From positions 670,501 through 734,500 of the forward strand of contig CP054689.1 in NCBI GenBank assembly GCA_013348725.1: 64,000 bases of DNA, written 5' to 3'. The position numbers were made by a program, and so were the translations under genes. Source of the stretch: Ectothiorhodospiraceae bacterium 2226. Its GTDB lineage: Bacteria; Pseudomonadota; Gammaproteobacteria; GCA-013348725. This document shows positions 28,544 through 30,134 of this stretch, in pieces. How positions within the stretch are numbered: the stretch's first letter is position 1; every line of letters begins with the position of its first letter. The notes under the pieces were generated by a model. That model was not told the origin of the DNA. It searched no databases and was given only the letters and a program-made list of their open reading frames with translations.

Positions 28544-28656
28544 GCGTGTTCCCTTCTCCGTGTCGTGCCGCGTGCGCGGATCCCATTGCTCTCTCATTGT
28601 ATCCAACACACGCCGCGGCCCGGGCGTGTCGGCGTCACCGGAGCGCTACGCCGCGT

Positions 28657-29598
28657 ATGATCGATGTGCTGATACAAATGGGCGGCCTGATCCTGTGCGG
28701 CGTGCTGTGGCGCGCTTGGCAACCGGGAGGCCTGCAGGCCGACGCGGTGCGTCCGGCGCTCACCGCCCTGGTGTACTACATCTTGCTCCCGGCACTGATA
28801 CTCAGGGTGTTGTGGCAGGCGCCGCTTGGCGCCGACAGTCTGCGGCTGGCCCTGCTGGCCGCCGCGACCATACTACTGGCCCTGGCGACCGCCGCAGCGG
28901 TCTACCGCGTGGGCCGCACGCCGCCACGGCTCGCCGGCGCGCTGGTGCTGGCCGCGGCCTTCCCCAACGTCATCTACCTCGGTTTGCCGGTGGTGGGTCA
29001 GGCGCTGGGCACGTGGGCGCAAGCCATCATCATCCAGTACGATCTGTTCGCCGCCTTCCCGCTGCTGATGACCGTCGGGGTCTTGATCGCACAGCATTAT
29101 GGGCAACGCGCCGATGGCCGGCGCGGCACCACGCCGCTGACGCCGCGCCGGCTGCTGCGCGCCTTCGCTGCGGTGCCGCCCCTATGGGCCGGTATCGCCG
29201 CCGTCGGGCTCAACCTCGGCGGCGTGGGGCTGCCCGAGGGGTTGGACCGGTGGCTGGAGCTGTTGGGCAATGGCGTCGTCCCGCTGATGCTCATCGCGCT
29301 CGGGATGGCACTGCGCTGGGACGTGGTGCACTGGCGTCGTCTGCCGGTGCTGGCGCCCGCGCTGGTCATCCAGCTAGCACTGATGCCGCTGTTCGCCTGG
29401 TGGGCAGGCCCGGTGCTCGGCCTGCCATCCGCCACCCTGGCGGTGTTGGTCTTGGGCAGCGCGATGCCCAGCATGGTGATCGGTTTGGTTTTTTGTGATC
29501 GTCACGGGCTGGATACTGGGGCCTACGCCGCGGCGGTGACGCTGTCCACCGCATGCAGCGCACTCACGCTGCCCCTCTGGCACGCGCTGGTCGGCTGA
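28657..29598 (+). CDS. AEC-family membrane transporter
   Basis: The 313-residue hydrophobic protein has about ten predicted transmembrane helices in two halves, a short basic cytoplasmic loop (about residues 147-170), and family features such as LVYYILLPALILRVLW, AFPNVIYLGLPVVG and GNGVVPLMLIALGMAL. The AEC (auxin efflux carrier) family exports organic anions in bacteria; malate and related substrates are known, but nothing here fixes the substrate. It stands 113 bases downstream of the divergent hydrolase gene and 77 bases before the Rrf2 regulator. Confidence 0.88.
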   Translation: MIDVLIQMGGLILCGVLWRAWQPGGLQADAVRPALTALVYYILLPALILRVLWQAPLGADSLRLALLAAATILLALATAAAVYRVGRTPPRLAGALVLAAAFPNVIYLGLPVVGQALGTWAQAIIIQYDLFAAFPLLMTVGVLIAQHYGQRADGRRGTTPLTPRRLLRAFAAVPPLWAGIAAVGLNLGGVGLPEGLDRWLELLGNGVVPLMLIALGMALRWDVVHWRRLPVLAPALVIQLALMPLFAWWAGPVLGLPSATLAVLVLGSAMPSMVIGLVFCDRHGLDTGAYAAAVTLSTACSALTLPLWHALVG

Positions 29599-29606
29599 GC
29601 GGAACT

Positions 29607-29639
29607 AAAGTTGACCGCGTTAGTCAGGCTTACTATAGG
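29607..29639 (+). promoter_or_regulatory. promoter with IscR type-1-like box ahead of the Rrf2 gene
   Basis: TTGACC (29611-29616) and TATAGG (29634-29639) are spaced by 17 bases. Overlapping the -35 is the inverted repeat TGAC-N7-GTCA (29612-29626). The left half AAAGTTGAC matches the IscR type-1 half-site (ATASYYGAC) at 8 of 9 positions, and the right GTCAGG also fits. This suggests autoregulation by the Rrf2 protein encoded 37 bases downstream, or control by a separate IscR. Confidence 0.65.
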
Positions 29640-29675
29640 TACAATGTTTGTCTGCACCTGCAGGAAGGAATGAAC

Positions 29676-30134
29676 ATGCGTCTGTCCCCGAAAGGCCGTC
29701 ATGCGGTCACCGCTTTGCTCGATCTGGCCCTGCATCAGGACCAGAAGGCCGTCCCGCTGGCGGAGATCACCGCGCGGCAGAACATCTCCGGCTCTTACCT
29801 CGAGCAGCTGTTCCGCCACCTGCGCCAAGCCGGCGTGGTACATGGCACCCGGGGACCGGGCGGTGGCTACCGCCTGGCGCGCGTGGCCGATGAAATCACG
29901 GTCGGCGAGATCATTCGCGCCGTGGAGGGCGAAAGCGGCACGCCGCCGGCACACGCCCAGCCGGGCCAGAACCTTCCGCAACAGCTTTGGCAAGAGGTAA
30001 GCCAGTCCCTGTACGGCGTGCTGGACGGGATGACGCTGGGGCACCTGGTGCGTCGGCCCGCGCCGGGACGCCACAAGGCGGACCTGCGAACGCTCACCCG
30101 CGCCCACGAGGAGCGTACCCGCTCAGCCGCCTAG
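29676..30134 (+). CDS. Rrf2-family transcriptional regulator lacking all cysteines
   Basis: The 152-residue protein begins MRLSPKGRHAVTALLDLAL, very like IscR, from the ATG spaced best from AGGAAGGA; ATG 29670 is an in-frame alternative. The winged helix-turn-helix (ISGSYLEQLFRHLRQAGVVHGTRGPGGGYRLAR) is intact. IscR has three cysteines around 92-104 that hold a [2Fe-2S] cluster; here that segment reads VEGESGTPPAHAQPGQ, and the protein contains no cysteine at all. It is therefore probably not a classical cluster sensor. There are no isc genes next to it. Its DNA target may resemble the box in its own promoter. Confidence 0.88.
   Translation: MRLSPKGRHAVTALLDLALHQDQKAVPLAEITARQNISGSYLEQLFRHLRQAGVVHGTRGPGGGYRLARVADEITVGEIIRAVEGESGTPPAHAQPGQNLPQQLWQEVSQSLYGVLDGMTLGHLVRRPAPGRHKADLRTLTRAHEERTRSAA

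Follow-up and report, generated by a model that had tools for sequence, protein, structure and literature searches.

What does a regulator do that has the DNA-binding domain of IscR and none of its cluster ligands, and which protein reads the IscR-type box in its promoter? In IscR, the textbook example, an iron-sulfur (Fe-S) cluster switches a single protein between two ways of binding DNA: type-1 sites are bound with the [2Fe-2S] cluster in place, type-2 sites with it or without it. In the window (the whole 64-kb stretch of DNA that we analyzed), a standalone gene encodes an IscR-like Rrf2 regulator that contains no cysteine, and an IscR type-1-like box lies just upstream of it.

An IscR-like regulator that has lost its cluster ligands

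The Cys-free regulator is encoded on the + strand at 29676-30134, with an ATG at 29676, a stop at 30134 and 152 aa between them. A Shine-Dalgarno-like AGGAAGGA (29662-29669, + strand), read directly from the sequence, lies 6 nt before this ATG. Another in-frame ATG, at 29670, could also serve as a start, but its spacing from AGGAAGGA is poor, and we thus preferred the one at 29676. In the window the gene has no isc or suf neighbors, in which it departs from IscR. Its upstream neighbor on the same strand is a Mem_trans (AEC-type) transporter (28546-29598, assigned by Pfam), and an FKBP-type (SlyD-like) isomerase gene lies convergently downstream. By eye, a similar Mem_trans (AEC-type) transporter is found near an IscR-like regulator with an incomplete cysteine triad in another genome (G295; L114 4337-5272), which may be chance.

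Family models placed the protein in the Rrf2 superfamily, with 111.5 bits against Pfam PF02082 (cut-off 30) and 115.3 bits against NCBIfam TIGR00738 (cut-off 73.3). Its best NCBIfam equivalog was IscR (TIGR02010), although its 122.8 bits fell far short of the 207.55 required (the intact IscR of the same genome scored 213.8 bits). The models for CymR (98.9 bits, cut-off 195), NsrR (41 bits, cut-off 182) and RirA (39 bits, cut-off 193) all fell below their cut-offs, and the RsrR model was absent from the NCBIfam output for this protein. The comparison with Rrf2 families that an earlier, sequence-only reading of this locus had proposed thus leaves IscR as the nearest of the named subfamilies, yet below IscR's own cut-off, with CymR, NsrR and RirA lower.

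That reading had also described a DNA-binding domain like that of IscR in a protein without the three cluster cysteines or any other cysteine, and this description holds in full. The positions of the IscR ligands C92, C98, C104 and H107 are occupied by A, A, N and Q. Zero cysteines in 152 aa would arise by chance about 22% of the time at an assumed 1% Cys, so it is the loss at the ligand positions that matters. The winged helix-turn-helix domain (wHTH; residues 1-84, 29676-29927, + strand) keeps S38, S40, Y41, E43, Q44, R50 and R59, and hence the recognition-helix and wing residues S40, E43, Q44 and R59 of IscR, and the former cluster loop (about residues 86-103, 29931-29984, + strand) has lost all ligands. 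Identity to the intact IscR of the host genome is 49/84 in positions 1-84 and 10/27 among aligned positions in 109-135. The best PDB matches by sequence were E. coli IscR 4hf0 and 4hf1 (4e-31), and an AlphaFold model of the protein (mean pLDDT 81.8) had apo-IscR 4hf0 as its top fold match (TM 0.71/0.88). Of these structures, 4hf1 is the cluster-free C-to-A form of E. coli IscR (PMC8593673).

The promoter box and the probable IscR regulon of the host

The promoter of the Cys-free gene carries TGAC-N7-GTCA at 29612-29626. In the 2.96-Mb genome we counted 12 copies of the bare pattern TTGAC-N7-GTCA, and the reversed control gave 12 as well, so the pattern by itself is no evidence of a site. Because the bare pattern was no better than chance, we trained a 25-position weight matrix (PWM) on the 250 bp before each of 106 IscR-like genes that encode all three cysteines. 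Apart from the host's own iscR, these came from other genomes. With a threshold of 8, the matrix was built from 95 of the regions; that of the host iscR, whose last 250 bp gave -16.7 at best, was not among them. The site AAAGTTGACCGCGTTAGTCAGGCTT (29607-29631, + strand), which was outside the training set, scored 17.0, the best in the window on both strands, with the next independent site in the 64 kb at 0.9. In random order-3 Markov sequence derived from the window, 1 of 79.16 million positions reached 17 and 5 reached 14. R1, a covariance model without structure that was built from 45 sites and is stricter than the PWM, gave the site a modest 5.9 bits (E 2.7 for the whole window), yet this was its sole match there. 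Judged by these scores, 29607-29631 is a genuine but divergent IscR type-1-like box, clear by PWM and weaker by R1, and the claim that such a box lies in this promoter is borne out. A tentative sigma70-like promoter (29611-29639, + strand) overlaps it: by direct reading, the -35 element TTGACC (29611-29616) sits within the box, followed by a 17-bp spacer and a candidate -10 element TATAGG (29634-29639) that matches at 4/6 positions. A survey of -10 spacing downstream of boxes gave no sharp peak.

A Pfam search returned four Rrf2 matches in the host genome, including the Cys-free protein. One is an intact IscR with the full C-x5-C-x5-C...H motif, at C1:499513; another, at C1:382251, resembles NsrR by eye; and the fourth is weak, below the Pfam cut-off. 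Over the whole host genome R1 found six matches at five places, a list that contains neither the box of the Cys-free gene nor the cysE box. One R1 match (PWM 30.9) lies upstream of sufB, the first gene of a suf cluster in which we also identified, from the translations, sufC, sufD, sufS, a U-type scaffold and other genes. Another (PWM 30.0) lies upstream of erpA, whose score as NCBIfam equivalog is 200.5 bits (cut-off 117). The PWM also placed a box of 18.6 directly upstream of cysE in a cysE-iscR-iscA cluster. The scan of the genome for the box that the sequence-only reading had suggested worked with the PWM and R1, which find boxes of a regulon, and not with the bare pattern. The box of the Cys-free gene has the lowest PWM score of the seven host-genome boxes scored.

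In E. coli, type-1 sites precede isc, erpA and nfuA (PMC8593673), so the host boxes look like an ordinary IscR regulon, of which the Cys-free gene looks like one more member. A separate IscR that could account for the box, raised earlier as the counter-explanation, is thus present and fully liganded, and together with the like boxes before sufB, erpA and cysE-iscR-iscA it explains the box at 29607 without the Cys-free protein. With the type-2 pattern of PMC4055776, the host genome gave no exact match; two palindromes came within one mismatch of it (0 in the reversed control), and neither is located at an evident Fe-S assembly gene.

Three further boxes matched by R1 lie before genes of other kinds. 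The strongest box in the host genome (PWM 32.5; C1:982542, L204 1502-1526) is upstream of a 148-aa ORF (1579-2025, + strand) that had no Pfam or NCBIfam match and whose position makes it a candidate new Fe-S-regulon protein. A box of 24.3 stands directly before a gene for an HdrB-like Fe-S protein of 463 aa (C1:400315, L207), and a third, scoring 21.0, separates a Sfum_1244-family gene from a divergent ORF of 205 aa that has no family match (C1:1955181, L208).

Triad-deficient relatives and the reader of type-1 boxes

Relatives were collected by a class-level search of 369 genomes and a profile version of it. Among the matches listed, we catalogued at least 129 distinct IscR-like proteins, 23 of them without the full cysteine triad; 20 regions were hand-picked, several for their short alignments, so 23/129 is not a frequency. 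Thirteen of these 23 triad-deficient proteins have no cysteine at all, and in L040 and L203 one or two triad cysteines remain. With two later finds, L248 (G086) and L254 (G295), the count rises to at least 25 triad-deficient proteins in 24 gammaproteobacterial genomes and 16 families. Searches at genus, family and order level matched the host genome alone, so no close orthologue of the Cys-free gene was available for comparison or dN/dS. A scan of named genomes gave a single distant match, in Clostridium, and all 121 tblastn matches in plasmid records were below 60% identity. Most, but not all, of 641 Rrf2 proteins carry the three cysteines according to PMC9973013, and cysteine-poor Rrf2 proteins as such are therefore already known; for triad-less IscR paralogues we found no description in the open-licence PMC literature.

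In a tree built without the loop columns, a canonical branch of 48 proteins (SH-aLRT 86) consisted entirely of proteins with the triad, whose genes typically lie beside cysE and iscS/iscU/iscA. The 23 catalogued triad-deficient proteins fell outside this branch, among 58 triad-bearing paralogues, with the Cys-free protein itself on a long branch (1.4). Position 57 follows the same division: it is Ser in 48/48 canonical proteins and Gly in 51/58 sister paralogues and 23/23 triad-deficient proteins. Position 34, beside the recognition helix, is Arg in 48/48 canonical proteins, and an extra Cys occupies it in 35/58 triad-bearing paralogues. We do not claim multiple independent losses of the triad: parsimony required 7 changes, yet a single clade of 18 triad-deficient rows was not rejected by an AU test (p 0.71; 111 columns), which left out the Cys-free protein and four long or partial rows. 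Directly downstream of 5/23 triad-deficient genes lies what we take to be iscU, and near 8/23 what is presumably a DUF1249-like gene; both counts are based on motifs and on flanks of unequal length. In L053, L116, L117, L128 and L040 the triad-deficient gene is followed by iscU with no iscS between them.

Across the 23 triad-deficient proteins, S38, S40, Y41, E43, Q44, R50 and R59 are identical in every one, and the columns that set them apart most strongly from the triad-bearing sisters fall, with few exceptions, in the loop (86-108) or the C-terminal tail. Of the 106 triad proteins, 102 have a loop of 20 residues; its length ranges from 10 to 24 in the triad-deficient ones, and we found no newly conserved residue in it across the 23 rows. 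In the wHTH, dN/dS was 0.00-0.10 in 4/4 triad-deficient pairs and 0.00-0.02 in nine triad pairs. Outside it, the triad-deficient pairs gave 0.009, 0.116, 0.273 and one saturated value, and the nine triad pairs 0.008-0.083 with two saturated. Such a pattern would be expected of proteins that were freed from binding a cluster but went on binding DNA. Most of the variation among these aligned relatives lies in the loop that once held the cluster. With at least 25 such proteins collected, the Cys-free gene is not a lone oddity.

The distribution of boxes across genomes bears on which protein reads them. We surveyed 35 chosen genomes with R1 (E<=0.1, at most 150 candidates scored per genome, kinship ignored). 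At least one box was found in each of the 25/25 genomes with a triad IscR and in 0/8 genomes without an IscR-like protein among the profile-search matches listed. In G084, a single genome that is 99% complete and whose sole IscR-like protein is Cys-free, no R1 box was found among the 150 of 240 candidates scored. G210, a genome 86% complete, carries five boxes although we found no triad IscR in it; G086, of the same genus, has an intact IscR and an orthologous triad-deficient gene. Among the triad-deficient genes, 13/23 have a box that scores above 15 in the 250 bp before the gene, compared with 50/58 sister paralogues and 41/48 canonical genes. The box was thus absent from 10/23 triad-deficient genes versus 8/58 triad sisters (Fisher 0.007, with kinship ignored and a PWM trained on triad rows), and since 10/23 have no upstream box, control of triad-deficient genes by the box is not general. 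The lower box frequency, given by a matrix trained on the triad groups, fits an operator that would be less needed once its product had stopped reading the box. Half-box retention before the box-less genes was weak (right-half p 0.02 to 0.86 over 10 rows).

In E. coli, Glu43 keeps apo-IscR off type-1 sites and the E43A substitution admits it (PMC5411485). Because boxes track triad IscR across genomes and Glu43 is kept in 23/23 triad-deficient proteins, intact IscR, and not the Cys-free protein, most likely reads the box at 29607. The proposal that this regulator lost Fe-S sensing and kept its site is therefore split: the protein is, by its sequence, an IscR derivative whose ligands are gone, and the part in which it would read its own box without a cluster does not agree with the retained Glu43 or with G084, where no box was found among the candidates scored.

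A proposed clusterless paralogue under IscR control, and its alternatives

We favor, with moderate confidence, the explanation that the Cys-free protein is a clusterless IscR paralogue, permanently apo-like, whose amount is controlled by holo-IscR through the type-1-like box. The protein keeps the IscR winged-helix domain and, with all Fe-S ligands lost, would be incapable of IscR-style cluster sensing. We therefore expect it to stay fixed in a state like that of apo-IscR, in effect a standing apo-IscR. Its promoter box would be an operator for the cluster-bearing IscR of the host. In cells well supplied with Fe-S clusters, holo-IscR would occupy the box and, because the likely -35 element lies within it, block the promoter and keep expression of the gene low. 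When clusters are scarce, IscR would leave, and the paralogue would rise alongside sufBCDS, erpA and cysE-iscR-iscA. How active the paralogue is would then depend on how much of it is made and not on a cluster. It would probably act on type-2-like, cluster-independent sites or on sites that have diverged in another way, and not on the type-1 box.

If the Cys-free protein instead bound the box itself, it would be a cluster-blind autorepressor of its own gene, and perhaps of suf and erpA, whatever the Fe-S status. Its unchanged recognition-helix and wing residues would allow this, as would the 13/23 triad-deficient genes whose 250-bp upstream region holds a box above 15. We nevertheless consider it unlikely: the 23/23 conserved Glu43 is the residue that in E. 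coli excludes apo-IscR from type-1 sites (PMC5411485), boxes track the presence of triad IscR, and they are missing more often from triad-deficient genes than from triad sisters (the comparison above, with kinship ignored). Quite unlikely, in our judgment, is a heterodimer of the paralogue and intact IscR that carries one cluster per dimer and alters occupancy of an asymmetric type-1 box. In its favor, the fold and the helices of the dimer region appear to be kept in the predicted model, both genes would be co-induced, and the two halves of type-1 sites are described as asymmetric (PMC5411485); the drop in identity to the host IscR from 49/84 in 1-84 to 10/27 in 109-135 argues against it.

Rrf2 proteins with other inputs do exist, among them CymR and the quinone sensor SifR (PMC9973013), and the regulator could in principle have become a sensor of another signal (redox, a metal or a small molecule) through other residues in the host lineage. 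With no cysteine for thiol chemistry, no newly conserved residue across the 23 rows and a loop free to vary in length, we regard this as very improbable. Least probable, to the point of being nearly discounted, is a decaying duplicate without function. The long branch and the lost sensor would suit such a fate, but the open frame, the unchanged DNA-contact residues, the plausible start site and the purifying selection on the wHTH in 4/4 related pairs do not.

The closest counterpart of the clusterless paralogue that we favor is a laboratory protein, E. coli IscR C92A/C98A/C104A (4hf0, 4hf1), which has the same DNA-contact residues and likewise lacks the ligand cysteines. Unlike that variant, the Cys-free protein is natural, has also lost H107 and is encoded by a second gene beside an intact IscR; in contrast to the E. 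coli IscR gene, this gene is not in an isc operon in the window. CymR of Bacillus and Staphylococcus, which is not known to carry an Fe-S cluster and works with CysK in cysteine control, has the Rrf2 fold in common with the Cys-free protein, and we saw no sign of CysK-type cysteine control here. NsrR, RirA and RsrR have the superfamily fold in common with it but carry cysteine ligands (those of RsrR include cysteine), of which it has none. For the behavior of a permanently apo IscR, the apo-locked 3CA allele of Yersinia pseudotuberculosis may serve as a model by analogy. According to PMC4055776, this protein acts only on type-2 motifs and, with holo-IscR gone from the cell, expression of iscR is derepressed about 30-fold. 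That allele is a mutant of the sole iscR, whereas the host here keeps an intact IscR as well.

More broadly, we tentatively suggest, as a possibility that we hold with less than even confidence, that the two jobs of IscR are split over two genes across Gammaproteobacteria. Type-1 sites would be served by the cluster-bearing IscR and type-2-like sites by a clusterless, often type-1-boxed paralogue, whose dose, set by holo-IscR, would replace cluster loss as the signal; in a variant of this, mixed dimers of both proteins may tune type-1 boxes. Natural paralogues with the DNA-binding half and without the sensor would offer ready-made apo-locked IscRs for studying the purpose of the apo mode and for testing, in species other than E. 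coli, if Glu43 truly keeps the two modes apart. In annotation, naming such genes iscR, or crediting their box to them, is best avoided. In G295, two distinct triad-deficient IscR-like genes (L254 on C29 and L114 on C50) occur beside an intact IscR, and one of the two has two adjacent box matches upstream.
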